A DNA stretch of 38,253 nt from a virus. Each line of letters starts with the position of its first letter. The stretch's first letter is position 1. The position numbers and the translations under genes are program-made. The stretch is from positions 1 through 38,253 of IMG/VR virus record IMGVR_UViG_3300020419_000038; one strand, written 5' to 3'. The notes under the pieces were generated by a model. That model searched no databases. It had not been told where the DNA came from and saw only the letters and a list, made by a program, of their open reading frames with translations. Shown one piece after another: positions 204 through 7,544 of this stretch.

Positions 204-277
204 TGGAGAGGGCAGAAGGAATCAAACCTTCATAAATGGATTTGCAGTCCATTGCATACTCATTCTGCCATGCCCTC
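204..277 (-). tRNA. tRNA-Cys (anticodon GCA), CCA encoded
   Basis: Read on the minus strand, all parts of a tRNA are present. The 7-bp acceptor stem is GAGGGCA/TGCCCTC (271-277 with 208-214). There is a short D arm, a 5-bp anticodon stem ATGGA/TCCAT with loop CTGCAAA giving anticodon GCA, and a 5-bp T stem GAAGG/CCTTC with loop TTTGATT. Discriminator U73 is as expected for cysteine tRNA, and the CCA tail is encoded at 204-206. The acceptor is perfectly paired, so this looks functional and not an attachment remnant. It lies between the ParB-like gene and a small gene, probably on the same transcript. Confidence 0.93.
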
Positions 278-437: not shown

Positions 438-2057
438 TTATTTTTTGAAAGGATTAAAGCCTTTACTCTTAGAGTCGTTAAAAGCTTCTAGTACTGATTT
501 AATAGCATCTCCCTTTTTGACATCTTCAAAAAGCTCATCACCAGTCAGTATTGTATAAAGCTTTCTAAGCCTTGGAGTATTATATTTAGCTAACCAATTT
601 CCGAATGGTTTGAACCACTTTTTCTCGTTGATTTTATAATCGTAGATCGATTTGAACTCTTTGAATCTAAAGTCAAAAGATTTACAACTTTGAATAGCCA
701 AAATACCAAGGATACGATTGAGTTCAACAGTGTCAAGGTTATAGTAATACTGAAAAGGAGTAATTCTACTAGCCTTGCAAACTTCATAAGCCCTGTCATA
801 AATTTCAGTAATAGCTGTGTCAACAGGTGAAGTGTAGTCATCTTTACTGACCTCCGTTATATGATTAAAATTTGAATTAGTTGCAAAGTATCCATGACCA
901 GGAATATTATAATTATGGTTATAGCCATTAATGGTATTGGCACAAATTGATGCCATAGCAAACTTACCATGGTCAAACTTATCCATGTTTTCAAGCATAT
1001 AAGTTCTCATAAACTCATTATAATAAGCCCATAACATTTTATTTTGTGGCTTTGAATACTCATAAGGAGTTTCTTCAGGTACATCTACATCCTTACCATC
1101 TGCGTCTACAGCTCCAGTAGGTTTCTTATCATCAACTGGCTTTTCAATCATACGAATTTCAGATAGCTCACCTCTATAAGGCATATACTGAATAATCAAT
1201 ACAGTTTCAGAGTCTTTCATCCTTTTTGGAGGACGTTCAAGATTCTTGCACTTAGGTGAATCATAAATTGACATATCATTTAAGAAATGAATACCTTTGA
1301 AAGGCTTTTTCTTTCTTTCTTCGATAATGCCGTTGATATGTTTCATTGTAAGCAATTCAAATGCTTTTTGGTTAGTGATAAAAACATTGTCTGAAAACAA
1401 ATCTTTCTCAAGACCAAGAGCTTCTTCGTGACCTTCAGTAGAAAATATAGCCATTTTGGCATCTATCTTAGAGCCATTGATATAATTATAAACTAAATTA
1501 GCACTATATCTGTGTTTACCATGTTCCTTAAAGAATTTGTTTTGAGTCTTGTGATTACCCATTGCTAAAGCTTCAGCAACAGAAATACCAAATTCCATAG
1601 CTCTGAACTTCTCTTTTGCAAGAGGCGACAGATCAGCTAATTTTACACGTTGTTTAACCCATTTCTGAGTACGTCCAAACTGAGCAGCTATACTGTCAAA
1701 GTCACCATAACCTTCTGCACATATTGCTTCAATAGCTTCACATTCGTCCATTGGATGCATATCTTCGTGCATCATATTAGCATGAAGACCAACTTCTTTT
1801 TCATTTGCATCTTGCTCAAGAACTTTACATTCGATAGTTTCAGCTGAGTTGTTACCATGGATTTGTAACAAAGCTTTAAGCCTTCTGTTACCATCTGTAA
1901 CAAAATAGCCAGAACCATTTTTCTTAACAACAAGGTTTTTAAGTAAACCATTATGTTTGATAGAGGCGACAAGTCTCTCCATATTTTCATCTGAGCCTTG
2001 TGTTTTTCTGACATTATTCTCTGTCGGCTTCAGGTCGCTTAGAGCAATTTCTTGCAT
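438..2057 (-). CDS. ParB/Srx-superfamily DNA-binding protein
   Basis: 539 aa. Residues 1-105 match the ParB N-terminal fold: ENNVR near 13-17, the nucleotide-binding loop TDGNRRLKAL at 54-63, and HANMMHEDMHPMDE at 92-105, which resembles the ENxQRxxxxPxxE box of ParB. A helix-turn-helix follows at about 120-140 (DSIAAQFGRTQKWVKQRV). The long C-terminal part (about 200-539) has no recognised domain. Such proteins bind DNA and act in partition, transcription or nuclease roles; no ParA is present, so a classical partition system is unlikely. AGGAG lies seven bases upstream of the start. It is the last protein gene before the tRNA in the minus-strand early operon. Confidence 0.85.
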   Translation of the reverse strand: MQEIALSDLKPTENNVRKTQGSDENMERLVASIKHNGLLKNLVVKKNGSGYFVTDGNRRLKALLQIHGNNSAETIECKVLEQDANEKEVGLHANMMHEDMHPMDECEAIEAICAEGYGDFDSIAAQFGRTQKWVKQRVKLADLSPLAKEKFRAMEFGISVAEALAMGNHKTQNKFFKEHGKHRYSANLVYNYINGSKIDAKMAIFSTEGHEEALGLEKDLFSDNVFITNQKAFELLTMKHINGIIEERKKKPFKGIHFLNDMSIYDSPKCKNLERPPKRMKDSETVLIIQYMPYRGELSEIRMIEKPVDDKKPTGAVDADGKDVDVPEETPYEYSKPQNKMLWAYYNEFMRTYMLENMDKFDHGKFAMASICANTINGYNHNYNIPGHGYFATNSNFNHITEVSKDDYTSPVDTAITEIYDRAYEVCKASRITPFQYYYNLDTVELNRILGILAIQSCKSFDFRFKEFKSIYDYKINEKKWFKPFGNWLAKYNTPRLRKLYTILTGDELFEDVKKGDAIKSVLEAFNDSKSKGFNPFKK

Positions 2058-2066
2058 ATAATTCTC

Positions 2067-2381
2067 CTATTGGTTATATAATTTTTCTTGGGAGGCTGGT
2101 TGGGCGCTCCTTCCAGTCTTCCACTTGCCATTTTCTATGGCTTTTACAATTTCCCTGGCTTGTTCTTCGTACCAACAGAGAAATATTTGATTGGTAGGAT
2201 CAAATCGTGGATCTAATCCTAGCTTGTGTTCATTAAAATTTTGGACAAAATCAGAAAGCTTTTCGGTCCACCAATGAACTTCACTTAGATGGACAATGTG
2301 AATTTCATCAATATTGTGAGGCTTTTGATATTTATGGAATGTTGTAATATTCCGAGCAATGATATGATTTTGTTCACTCAT
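2067..2381 (-). CDS. hypothetical protein, 104 aa
   Basis: Unrecognised early protein, rich in His and Trp in its middle section, with no membrane segment. Its ATG overlaps the stop of the upstream gene by four bases (ATGA), which indicates translational coupling. The ParB-like gene starts nine bases after its stop. Function unknown; probably a small DNA-metabolism or host-takeover protein by position. Confidence 0.7.
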   Translation of the reverse strand: MSEQNHIIARNITTFHKYQKPHNIDEIHIVHLSEVHWWTEKLSDFVQNFNEHKLGLDPRFDPTNQIFLCWYEEQAREIVKAIENGKWKTGRSAQPASQEKLYNQ

Positions 2382-2779
2382 TGTGTTTCTGCCATTCTAA
2401 TCATCTGTCTTTCTCTTTCGAGAACTTCAAACTGAGATGGAAATTTAACAACACATCTGCCACTTAAAAGATCGTCACTTAAAGCTTTAGGTATGCTGAT
2501 TGAATCACCAGAGGCGACATCAACACCTAAGATTACAAGTTTTCCAACAATAGGCATTGGATAAAGGTCAGGAACATAACTAAAAAATTTAACTCCTGCT
2601 GTGTACAAACCATTATCATCAAAGAAAATAGTTCCACCTTGATTGTCATAAGTATATCCGACACCACCAAAAGCATCACAACCTATGAGAGATTGCAAAA
2701 GTGTTATGTCTTGTTTTTTAGGTTTGTAGTCTATAATTTTTACTGATTTTTCAGTTGGATTTATTAGTGCTGCTTTCAT
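2378..2779 (-). CDS. hypothetical protein, possibly DUF3846-like
   Basis: 133 aa. The N-terminus (MKAALINPTEKSVKIID), a glycine-rich beta segment (about 36-62) and the sequence PMPIVGKLVILG (about 74-85) resemble the DUF3846 family of small phage proteins, whose function is unknown; the match is by eye only. It is coupled to its neighbours: the ATG touches the stop of the zinc-motif ORF upstream, and its own stop overlaps the next start. Confidence 0.65.
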   Translation of the reverse strand: MKAALINPTEKSVKIIDYKPKKQDITLLQSLIGCDAFGGVGYTYDNQGGTIFFDDNGLYTAGVKFFSYVPDLYPMPIVGKLVILGVDVASGDSISIPKALSDDLLSGRCVVKFPSQFEVLERERQMIRMAETQ

Positions 2780-3081
2780 TATCTATCTCCACAATCTATA
2801 CAAAGTCTTGAGGTTTCTCCTGCCCACTGGTCAGGTTTTGGATGACAACCACATACAATGCAGTAGTCTAAGCTACGATTTTGTCTGCGATGTACTTCGA
2901 CATTAACGCTACGACCACCCACAGAGGTGCGCCAATAACTGACACGAGAAGTGTTGGGTTGATTCCAAAAGCTATAAGCATTAATAGGATCAAGGCTGTT
3001 GAGGCGAGATGAATTGTCACGAACCACCCTAGCCATTGAGCCTTGTTGTTGATTAGGCTGATTTTCTTTATGTTTTGCCAC
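2779..3081 (-). CDS. putative zinc-ribbon small protein, GTG start, overlapping frame
   Basis: 100 aa. The C-terminus (about residues 74-98) has CIVCGC followed by CIDCG, a CxxC...CxxC pattern typical of zinc binding. The first 70 residues are Gln/Asn/Ser-rich and lie over a second ORF (2868-3083) in another frame of the same strand. The two share one strong ribosome site (AAGGAG) with starts two bases apart, in the string ATGTGG: ATG for the membrane ORF and GTG for this one. The zinc pair lies mostly beyond the end of the other ORF. Possible alternatives are a frameshifted extension of that ORF or an internal start. Confidence 0.5.
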   Translation of the reverse strand: MAKHKENQPNQQQGSMARVVRDNSSRLNSLDPINAYSFWNQPNTSRVSYWRTSVGGRSVNVEVHRRQNRSLDYCIVCGCHPKPDQWAGETSRLCIDCGDR

Positions 3082-3083
3082 AT
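2868..3083 (-). CDS. small membrane protein, two TM helices
   Basis: 71 aa. Two hydrophobic helices are evident: about residues 17-41 (WLGWFVTIHLASTALILLML and onward) and about 44-63. A basic N-terminus and a short charged tail flank them. AAGGAG lies seven bases upstream of the ATG. The whole gene lies within a second open frame (2779-3081). Function unknown; holin-like or membrane-remodelling roles are possible but not supported by context. Confidence 0.6.
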   Translation of the reverse strand: MWQNIKKISLINNKAQWLGWFVTIHLASTALILLMLIAFGINPTLLVSVIGAPLWVVVALMSKYIADKIVA

Positions 3084-3206
3084 TTAATTCTCCTTAGTTA
3101 ATTTTTTATTAAGCCTTCTGTCTTTGGCTTTGGATGCTTTCTTAAAAGCCTTTTCCCATTTGCGTGAGGTGCTGTGGGTCTTGTCCCTTTTGACTCTCAT
3201 AGTCAT
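3084..3206 (-). CDS. very basic 40-aa peptide
   Basis: The sequence is dominated by Lys and Arg (for example KAFKKASKAKDRRLNKKL) with no hydrophobic core, so it may bind nucleic acid. The start at 3206 overlaps the stop of the upstream membrane peptide (ATGA). A second ATG at 3200 has AGGAG at a better distance and may be the real start. A longer upstream reading exists in this frame, but its extra residues lie across the membrane-peptide gene and look unlike protein. Confidence 0.55.
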   Translation of the reverse strand: MTMRVKRDKTHSTSRKWEKAFKKASKAKDRRLNKKLTKEN

Positions 3207-3352
3207 GCTCCTGGAGGAGGCACTACAAGAGCCATAAAAACTGTGATGATATATAAGATTACGATTAAAAGGATCAGGGTTGCTATGTCCTGAAACCATT
3301 GAAAGGCAGTACTCTTTCTAAGCTCTGCCAGAATTTCCTGAAGTACTTCCAA
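3203..3352 (-). CDS. single-TM small protein, TTG start
   Basis: 49 aa. It begins at TTG five bases after a perfect AGGAGG. The sequence is an amphipathic N-terminus (MEVLQEILAELRKS), then a strong membrane helix (about 20-44, with IATLILLIVILYIITVF), ending in PPPGA. It overlaps the 3' end of the preceding gene by 35 bases and the next start by four. The topology suggests an inner-membrane peptide. The unusual start codon and short length make it easy to miss. Confidence 0.6.
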   Translation of the reverse strand: MEVLQEILAELRKSTAFQWFQDIATLILLIVILYIITVFMALVVPPPGA

Positions 3353-3551
3353 AGTTACCTCCTATAATGTTGCTAATGTCTTCTTGGGTTCTCATTCGAT
3401 TAGACAAGAGAGTCAGTCTTTCATTTATAATCCCATTTTTAATGTCTATAGCCGTTATAAGCTCTATAAGCTTTTCATCTCTTTCTTTGATGTAATCTTT
3501 GACTTTAGAGATAACTACATCGGCTAACATTTGATCTTTATCTATTTCCAT
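3318..3551 (-). CDS. hypothetical protein, 77 aa
   Basis: Probably a helical or coiled-coil small protein (KVKDYIKERDEKLIELITAI) with a Gly/Ser-rich tail. The start at 3551 is set by CAGGAGG four to five bases upstream. The reading continues open to 3635 but passes into the terminator behind ssb, so those extra residues are rejected. It is the first gene after the ssb terminator. Confidence 0.6.
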   Translation of the reverse strand: MEIDKDQMLADVVISKVKDYIKERDEKLIELITAIDIKNGIINERLTLLSNRMRTQEDISNIIGGNFGSTSGNSGRA

Positions 3552-3583
3552 AATTCCTCCTGAGGCTGTAATTAATTTGCACG

Positions 3584-3611
3584 AAAAAAGGGGCTGTCTT
3601 TCGACAACCCC
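3584..3611 (-). terminator. rho-independent terminator after ssb
   Basis: On the minus strand a 9-bp stem (GGGGTTGTC/GACAGCCCC, one G-U pair) is closed by a GAAA tetraloop and followed by six T. It lies 31 bases after the ssb stop and separates ssb from the downstream small-gene cluster. Confidence 0.9.
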
Positions 3612-3641
3612 AGTTTCTGTTTCGGGAGGAAACATCTGTTC

Positions 3642-4100
3642 CTAAAAAGGAATTTCGTCATCAAGGTTAGTAGCTCCACCACCATTGGTATTGCTTTTTG
3701 ACTTACCTTGAGTTGTGTCGTTAGCACCCTCCGTTGGCTTAGAACCAGCTAAACGTATCATTGAGGACATACCAGCAATCTTAATTTTGAAAGCCTTCTT
3801 TTGAACGCCATCTTGCTCGTAACTGTCAATTTGAGGAAAGCCTCTGATAAAAACTGTTGAACCAGACTTTAAATGTGGCTCTATAATGTTAGTTACAACA
3901 CCAGATGGTTTACCATTTCTGGGCTTACCATCCCAAGCTTCAACGTTATACCAGTGAGTTTTACTTTGTTTCTCACCTTGCTTGTTAGTGTAATTTTCAT
4001 TAACTGCGACAGAAAAGTTAGCAACCTTTGTGTCGTTAACAGGTTTAATTTCAGGGTCTTGACCCAAGTTACCTGATACTGTGATTTCTGCTAAATTCAT
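3642..4100 (-). CDS. ssb: single-stranded DNA-binding protein
   Basis: 152 aa, OB-fold SSB. N-terminal MNLAEITVSGNLGQDPEIK matches the usual start of bacterial and phage SSBs. HWYNVEAWDG (about 49-58) and the strand STVFIRGFPQIDSYEQDG are family features. After a Gly/Asn/Ser-rich linker it ends in DDEIPF, the acidic tip that recruits replication and repair proteins. GAAGGAG lies upstream of the start. The gene stands behind an unusually long structured leader (4101-4405) and has its own terminator, so it is probably expressed and regulated separately. It would serve the annealing protein and exonuclease at 34-36 kb. Confidence 0.95.
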   Translation of the reverse strand: MNLAEITVSGNLGQDPEIKPVNDTKVANFSVAVNENYTNKQGEKQSKTHWYNVEAWDGKPRNGKPSGVVTNIIEPHLKSGSTVFIRGFPQIDSYEQDGVQKKAFKIKIAGMSSMIRLAGSKPTEGANDTTQGKSKSNTNGGGATNLDDEIPF

Positions 4101-4229
4101 AGCCTTCTCCTTCTACTAAGTTTAAATTTACGAGTTACCCTTGAAGCGAGACTTCCTAGACGGCATCCCCTGCTACAAATTGTAGTTACTTCAACAAGGA
4201 GTTAATTCTCAGGCAACTCACTAAAATAA

Positions 4230-6082: not shown

Positions 6083-6298
6083 CTATGTCATTGAGAGATG
6101 ATTGTTCAAGTCCTTGTACAATCTTGCTAATTCGTATTCTGAATCAGTGTTATTGATATTGAATAAGATCATCTCGATCTCTGACTCAATGATCTCTGAC
6201 ATATCGCCATTGTCAGTAACTTCAAGGATTCTTTCCAAATCCTCTGATCTTGGCTTTAACTTAGTTTCTTTACTAAATAATTCTAATTGATTAGTCAT
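6083..6298 (-). CDS. hypothetical acidic protein, 71 aa
   Basis: Acidic, predicted all-helical, rich in Glu, Ile and Leu, with no recognised motif. AGGAG lies six bases upstream of the ATG. It is the first gene of the leftward early block, so its promoter should lie between 6299 and about 6420; no clear -35/-10 pair could be picked there. A small regulator or anti-host protein is possible, but nothing proves it. Confidence 0.65.
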   Translation of the reverse strand: MTNQLELFSKETKLKPRSEDLERILEVTDNGDMSEIIESEIEMILFNINNTDSEYELARLYKDLNNHLSMT

Positions 6299-6400
6299 AA
6301 TACGCTCCTATTAAATTGTTAAAAGATATATTCAGACACCAATAAGCATTGGCACTGAAGCTCAAACGACCTCCCTTAAATTTCTCTAATCAATACCTGA

Positions 6401-7037
6401 ACGGAGAATAAAATCGTCTTTGTCGACCTCTTGGGAGCTATTTTATTTGGAGAGAACCACACTTGTGGACTTTTTCTTCTGATAGAAAAAGGGGTCTTTA
6501 TTCTAGGCTAATTTGGGAGCGTCATCATCTAATGATATCGTGCCTAATGTTTGTTGTTGGATGGATATCACGACCGAAGGAAGGGGAACTTTCAAAGTTC
6601 GATGAGATGATTAACACCATCTTGCATCTCTTCACTTGCAAGGTGGATGTGGTTCACTATCGGAACGCAGGAAGTAGCTGGTAAGCGTCCCCTGAGAGAG
6701 GTCGTTTGCTTAACACAGTACAGGTGGAAAGACGAGGAGCAACGTCCCTTTATAATGTAATTTTGCTTCTTCAGCAAACCTTTACATGGTGCTTTCAGAG
6801 CAGATGAGGAACGTTAGTGGTAATGTCAGCTTTAGCTGGCATAACGGAGTGGAACATCTGATCTTACGCAATAAAGGAAACGGACTCAATATTACCTCGC
6901 ATAAATAAAATCCCGTGAGGGAACTTATAGCCCTGATCGTTACACGAATGTGCCGAAACACCTCTTCGTGGTTCGGTGTAGCTTGGCAACTTGTTGCCTA
7001 TGCGTAATAGAGCAGGACTAGCTACAGTAAGGGTTAC
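6401..7037 (+). ncRNA. large structured non-coding RNA upstream of terS
   Basis: No credible gene lies between 6299 and 7109, but plus-strand helices are dense. They include AATAAAAT/ATTTTATT (6407-6414 with 6440-6447), CTTTTTC/GAAAAAG (6470-6476 with 6485-6491), GAACTT/AAGTTC (6586-6600), a 10-bp stem (6617-6626 with 6637-6646), and ATGTAA/TTACAT around TTTGCT/AGCAAA (6755-6787). A three-tier arm spans 6801-6860 (CAGATG, CGTTA and TGTCAGC pairing in nested order). TCCC-GTGA-GGGA is a GNRA hairpin at 6911-6922. A possible H-type pseudoknot spans 6943-6976. TGTAGC/GCTACA (6977-6982 with 7021-7026) encloses GGCAA-CTTG-TTGCC. GNRA and CUUG loops fix the plus strand. The size and phage setting recall GOLLD or ROOL RNAs; identity is not established. 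Confidence 0.75.
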
Positions 7038-7109
7038 AGAAATGTGAATAGACATCATTTTGACCATAGTTAGTATACTCGTCAGTACTAAAAACTTAAT
7101 GGACTTTCG

Positions 7110-7544
7110 ATGACCAAAGCAAACACACAACAACAACAAAAGTTTAAGAAAGCCGTTGTGCCAATGGATGAGATAAAAGAAAATGCAACGTTAATCAAAC
7201 ACAGTCACTCCAAAGTAACAGAAGCACAAGCAGACTTGGTGCATATGATCTTGCATGATGGTTGCAACCCAACAGAAGCTGCTGAACGAATTGGAAGAAA
7301 CAAATCTTGGGCTTATAACACATTGAATAAACAACATATTATCGATTACAGGAAAGAGATATCGATGAGAACATTAGGATGGGACGCAATACAAGGACTA
7401 GCGACCATGAGAGAGTTGCTTAATGCTAAGTCATCCTTCGTCAGACTTGAAGCCAGTAAAGATTTAATGGATAGAGCTGGACTGCGTAACGATGCTCCTG
7501 TTAGTCACAATACAGCTGTACAAATAAACTTTAATGTTGATTAG
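7110..7544 (+). CDS. terS: terminase small subunit (putative)
   Basis: 144 aa. A helix-turn-helix is visible at about 54-70 (PTEAAERIGRNKSWAYNTL), the DNA-recognition region expected of small terminases. The C-terminal half (AIQGLATMRELLNAKSSFVRLEASKDLMDRAG) resembles the oligomerisation helices of this family. It would recognise the packaging site and load DNA onto TerL. It opens the late operon, two genes before terL, and follows the large structured RNA. There is no clear ribosome site; the start is the first ATG in frame with a polar N-terminus. Confidence 0.8.
   Translation: MTKANTQQQQKFKKAVVPMDEIKENATLIKHSHSKVTEAQADLVHMILHDGCNPTEAAERIGRNKSWAYNTLNKQHIIDYRKEISMRTLGWDAIQGLATMRELLNAKSSFVRLEASKDLMDRAGLRNDAPVSHNTAVQINFNVD

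Follow-up and report, generated by a model that had tools for sequence, protein, structure and literature searches.

Between the early and late genes of a virus, we found a conserved and strand-biased array of hairpins, the last domain of which, D3, also occurs in filamentous phages and on plasmids. The DNA analyzed, referred to as the window in the following, comprises 38,253 nucleotides (positions 1 to 38,253 of IMG/VR record IMGVR_UViG_3300020419_000038). By homology, D3 can be assigned to a family of elements of ~70-100 nt common to filamentous ssDNA phages, plasmids and tailed phages, in which it lies before terS, the gene for the small terminase subunit. We lean towards the view that the whole block is a modular, strand-specific hairpin array that acts as single-stranded DNA (ssDNA), with at least one of its hairpins being an initiation element similar to ssi and Frpo elements.

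A first-pass annotation of the window had described a dense plus-strand fold directly before terS, in about 640 bases without a credible gene (6401-7037), and had likened it to the GOLLD and ROOL RNAs. While the region indeed holds no conserved gene, and covariation supports a large, conserved and strand-biased fold, the block is larger and better bounded at ~6331-7024 (Table 1), and the likeness to GOLLD and ROOL did not translate into membership, as described below. Relatives were gathered by TerL and terS searches of IMG/VR, of which 73 with sufficient upstream sequence were retained after removal of near-duplicates. Among them, terS is repeatedly separated from a minus-strand early gene by several hundred bases, and in these ~70 marine phage contigs, collected as the annotation had suggested, the fold is kept by compensatory changes. 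Outside this set, the whole block yielded no blastn match among INPHARED phages, and a pattern method found no terS relative in GTDB genomes; 67 GTDB matches to a 16-mer from the 5' domain of group C were rejected, as they lack the TG-repeat context and many share another, apparently coding, context.

The annotation had staked its proposal on the region folding better than dinucleotide-preserving shuffles, and this is the case: RNA folding gives z-scores of -4.8 for the plus and -2.5 for the minus strand, and DNA folding -5.7 and -6.1. The preference for the plus strand is also seen in the relatives, with a mean MFE z of -4.35 against -3.41 and the plus strand ahead in 18 of 25 (a third of the 73). 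Likewise, the consensus energy is lower for the plus strand in nine of ten groups, and GNRA-type loops are enriched on it (19 versus 5 on the minus strand). The earlier description of hairpins as stable only on the plus strand was nonetheless too strong, given that the majority of stems form on the minus strand too. The GC content of the block exceeds that of its surroundings.

Table 1. Coordinates of the structured block and of neighboring genes in the window
Feature	Positions	Strand	Remarks
P0, 5' strand	6331-6355	+	long-range closing helix; RNAduplex with 6540-6565, -26.8 kcal/mol, z -4.5
P0, 3' strand	6540-6565	+	same RNAduplex pairing; holds TTG repeat 6551-6559
P1 hairpin	6406-6448	+	arms 6406-6414/6440-6448; covariation; conserved CTTTGTCGAC...GGAGCT inside
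P2 hairpin	6470-6491	+	arms 6470-6477/6484-6491; compensatory changes
P3 hairpin	6524-6536	+	ATCAT-CTA-ATGAT
Nested arm	6801-6860	+	
GTGA hairpin	6911-6922	+	TCCC-GTGA-GGGA; few homologues
D3 domain	6928-7024	+	compensatory changes in counted helices; covariance model R1
D3 closing stem	outer 6928-6931/7021-7024, inner 6932-6935/7013-7016	+	missed in the first-pass annotation
D3 hpA	6943-6945/6950-6952	+	
D3 hpB	6953-6957/6972-6976 and 6959-6961/6968-6970	+	
D3 hpC	6985-6990/6993-6998	+	
terS promoter, sigma70-like	7049-7079	+	TAGACA, 19-bp spacer, TATACT; conserved in relatives
terS, first late gene	7110-7544	+	PHROG 2538 terminase small subunit
First gene of leftward early operon	6083-6298	-	
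SSB, early operon	3642-4100	-	
DUF3846, early operon	2378-2779	-	
ParB-like, early operon	438-2057	-	
tRNA-Cys	204-277		sole tRNA; near contig start

The comparison of relatives supports the helices of P0, P1, P2 and D3. P0, which had been overlooked before, closes the 5' half through a core pairing (6340-6355/6540-6556) that is present in the MFE fold, and reaches a mean z of -3.1 across 64 loci, 32 of which score below -3. The 3' strand of P0 consists of a simple repeat, which is (TG)n, (GTA)n or (TTG)n in different phages and is present in 68 relatives; between phage groups, the 5' strand varies along with the repeat unit. When P0 strands are swapped, the mean pairing energy weakens from -30.1 kcal/mol with the own partner to -25.7 kcal/mol within the same repeat class and -19.0 kcal/mol with another class. 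We rejected a pairing between the TTG repeat and CAACAA in terS, since these CAA codons are conserved irrespective of the repeat present.

In 12 sequences of P1, five pairs changed on both sides (15 cells), with a covariation score matched by none of 500 shuffles. All seven counted pairs of P2 changed on both sides, with 100% pairing and no G.U in 84 cells, and the counted helices of D3 show compensatory changes with no G.U in 269 cells across 12-13 phage copies, the controls for both counts being within-column shuffles, which are blind to relatedness. P3 is kept by many relatives and swapped for CACAAT/ATTGTG in others. Another phage group has a hairpin GAGC...GC that is maintained through both-side changes at two pairs, again with no G.U in 84 cells; in the IMG/VR contigs with this hairpin, a TG repeat lies behind it in 25 of 25 and the promoter further on in 24 of 25.

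In the 3' half, the nested arm, the GTGA hairpin and the CTTG hairpin (6985-6998) were all found where the annotation had placed them. The outer stem of the nested arm, CAGATG/CATCTG, is replaced by GAATGAAT/ATTCATTC in one relative (L234) and by GATCAT/ATGATT in another (L232), and one pair of its inner stem is broken in some relatives. A proposed H-type pseudoknot found no support: L003, L086 and the group-B relatives have breaks in its helix 6943-6948/6965-6970 and instead form adjacent hairpins with compensatory changes, namely hpA and the first of the two hpB helices listed in Table 1.

The arrangement of these modules is mosaic, as the position of D3 is occupied by D3 in some phages of a group and by another pair of hairpins in others. 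For instance, L092, L032 and L255 resemble L096, L267 and L309 in the 5' part and differ from them in the module carried where D3 would lie, as if modules had been exchanged. The divergent phage L414 also has D3 immediately before a terS gene. Since the sequence alignment (A2) misplaces the D3 outer stem and hpB between groups, we counted these pairs on hand-aligned arms and restricted the covariance model R1, which was trained on tailed-phage copies only, to hpA, hpC and the inner stem. R1 scores positions 6928-7025 of the window, one of its training sequences, with 91 bits.

Beyond the tailed phages, R1 finds D3 in Pf1 (E 8e-5), in further filamentous or related contigs (L400, which encodes the Pf1 coat protein, L415, L443, L447 and L463) and in plasmids (L495, at 9e-5 and 5e-4, L492, L496, L493 and L502), with no match at E up to 1 on 35 unrelated viral contigs. 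A scan of IMG/VR for the D3 core also returned many short isolate contigs. With the Pf copy as query, blastn yielded 21 Pf-type phage records (Pf1 included) and 30 plasmids, with no enterobacterial plasmid among the matches listed. The plasmid copies are nearly all intergenic, mostly alphaproteobacterial, and occur in up to three places per plasmid. The Agrobacterium plasmid L495, for example, has two copies ~800 bp apart (at 4188 and 5005), and several further plasmids are matched by blastn at two or three places each. D3 alone was found outside these phages, the other modules having no plasmid match. A search of the literature for the D3 core sequence gave no match either; as most subscription papers lay outside it, this speaks only weakly for novelty.

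The genes next to these copies are informative as well. In Pf1, D3 sits between PA0719 and gene 5, which encodes the ssDNA-binding protein. Of the 15 plasmid records read, six have relaxase or tra genes in the stretch; other records have genes for ssb, DUF932, ParB, a zincin metallopeptidase or DUF3560, and some have none of these close by. The gene set of the early operon in the window (438-4100, minus strand) resembles that around some plasmid copies. Furthermore, the gene just left of D3 is on the opposite strand in 10 of the 15 plasmid records, as in the window, whereas in three Ti-type plasmids it is on the hairpin strand; gene orientation alone therefore does not settle the question of DNA or RNA.

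With its D3 domain in filamentous phages and plasmids, the block reads more as an ssDNA start signal than as a GOLLD- or ROOL-type RNA, and the proximity of D3 to relaxase, tra, ssb, DUF932 and ParB genes points in the same direction. Loops of two nucleotides or of the GNA type are characteristic of stable mini-hairpins in DNA, and the loops of hpC also favor DNA, as they are mostly TT, TC, TA or GNA triloops (GAA, GCA, GTA, GGA), with longer ones in a few copies (L002, L414). DNA is likewise favored by the absence of G.U from the counted P2, D3 and GAGC helices, an argument that is limited to these helices, since 101 of 980 pairs are G.U when D3 copies are folded with RNA parameters (MFE) and hpB contains a G.T in the Pf copies. 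Finally, no upstream sigma70 promoter for a plus-strand RNA is conserved among relatives and no intrinsic terminator was found, including before terS, which again argues for DNA. On the other hand, this reading is weakened by the G.U pairs in P0 and P1, of which those in P0 suit an RNA made from the plus strand's sequence (z -3.7 versus -2.6; 45 of 62), and by the fact that in a dsDNA phage the plus strand is only transiently single-stranded.

A known precedent for such a signal further favors DNA, namely the Frpo/ssi ssDNA promoters in leading regions, some of which lie immediately upstream of ssb (PMC11541004). Like the block, they are strand-specific intergenic hairpins that belong to elements with a single-stranded phase and lie near leading-region genes and ssb or upstream of them (PMC11541004). 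The block has hairpins that are kept by compensation and show a strand preference, most of its stems being possible on both strands, and for D3 alone there are carriers that pass through an ssDNA stage, namely filamentous phages and transferred plasmids. It differs in its fold, with a short multi-hairpin D3 and a modular block, and in its hosts, which are dsDNA phages. Unlike Frpo, it has no clear -35/-10 in a stem; the matches within the folds are scattered on the minus strand and none is conserved. Primase-type ssi elements do not require a -35/-10. D3 has no sequence match to ssi/Frpo elements, and we regard D3 and the block as candidates for an ssi/Frpo-like element whose membership is unproven.

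If the block acts as ssDNA, its hairpins would offer a duplex-like platform at the time when the plus strand is single-stranded. On this platform, a host polymerase (primase, or RNA polymerase as at Frpo) would begin an RNA, which would then prime the synthesis of the complementary strand. The leftward operon (SSB, ParB-like, DUF3846) would be transcribed from the hairpin strand, and the same RNA may also serve as its first transcript. P0-P3, the nested arm and the alternative 3' modules might have a shared role as parts or alternatives of the same signal. More tentatively, we propose as a possibility that D3 is the founding member of a new family of structured initiation elements on ssDNA, common to filamentous phages, plasmids and dsDNA tailed phages, and that the tailed phages bear it in a modular, recombining array beside a leading-region-like early operon.

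The main rival to action as ssDNA is a large structured plus-strand non-coding RNA of the 'ornate' GOLLD/ROOL kind, produced early or at the transition from early to late genes and functioning in trans. In this case, D3 would be an RNA module present on several kinds of mobile elements, for example an anti-defence RNA. Such an RNA would account for the multi-domain fold of ~700 nt with its covariation, the plus-strand bias in energy, the P0 wobbles, the raised GC content and the GNRA loops, although the plus-strand enrichment of the latter fits DNA just as well. ROOL RNAs have multiple pseudoknots; the block is similar to them in size (~660 nt) and phage location, but it has no covariance-model match and its one proposed pseudoknot is broken in relatives. 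GOLLD is an expressed RNA, raised during lysis, and is often found near tRNA islands in phages or prophages. The block resembles it in size, phage location and a modular fold with one conserved part, the 5' part of GOLLD being variable and its 3' part conserved (PMC12286853); it differs in that the sole tRNA of the window is ~6 kb away and in that D3 is also found in filamentous phages and plasmids.

The search of Rfam that the annotation had recommended speaks against these classes: in a cmscan of 6250-7150 against Rfam 15, GOLLD and ROOL were absent at E up to 10, as they were in nine relatives at E up to 5. Neither gathering nor permissive thresholds gave a family match, STAXI (RF01728) included, and sub-threshold matches (snoRNA, HDV-like at E 7.7) were rejected as noise. 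STAXI is otherwise an instructive comparison. It is an RNA-like structure that occurs in repeats in the vicinity of ssb, antirestriction, topoisomerase and integrase genes, and its authors considered a role as ssDNA but favor RNA (PMC2864571); it consists of tandem pseudoknots with UUCG loops, in which it differs from the block. The trans-acting RNA is unlikely in our estimate, given that no Rfam family matches, that no conserved plus-strand promoter and no terminator were found, that the counted helices lack G.U, that the hpC loops are DNA-like and that homologs of D3 occur in ssDNA phages and in the vicinity of relaxase, tra or ssb genes.

The block could also be a cis-acting RNA leader of the late operon that controls transcription elongation or translation of terS in a put- or Q-like manner. 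It always lies immediately upstream of terS in these phages, on the same strand and with no terminator in between, and a small inverted repeat in the start-site region of the terS promoter varies with compensation. Yet this promoter, which overlaps the conserved AATGTGAATAGACA (7041-7054) and was missed in the first-pass annotation, separates the block from terS, and D3 is present in filamentous phages and plasmids that lack terS; we thus consider a leader improbable. In most relatives, the promoter is TTGACA-N19-TATAAT-like, with near-consensus hexamers, and its 19-bp spacer is a feature of MerR-activated promoters. A role in packaging or as a late switch, also suggested by the annotation, has the position before terS as its sole positive evidence; terS is preceded by a conserved promoter of its own, situated after the block. 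A packaging site (pac/cos) or packaging RNA for the terminase is very improbable, since, despite the position before terS even in L414, D3 occurs in Pf1 and plasmids, neither of which has a terminase, and compensatory arm changes are unexpected for a double-stranded protein-binding site.

The cultured pelagiphage Hodr (L082, OQ414635) offers an experimental system for structures at the early/late boundary. R1 finds no D3 in it, and at the same boundary it has a 170-nt near-perfect inverted repeat (3585-3760; z -7.0 and -7.9), which extends from the RBS of a minus-strand early gene to a tiny plus-strand ORF and is followed by a TTGACA-N17-TATACT promoter.

Should the block act as RNA after all, it would represent a large phage RNA family not in Rfam 15. 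If, however, D3 founds a family of ssDNA start signals, a type of signal that is otherwise familiar from conjugation would be at work in tailed phages and would tie them to the leading-region logic of that process. Pf-type filamentous phages would gain a testable start signal for their complementary strand, and alphaproteobacterial plasmids a candidate family of ssDNA promoters or ssi elements. It would also caution that what looks like a conserved RNA structure in a phage may be an ssDNA element.
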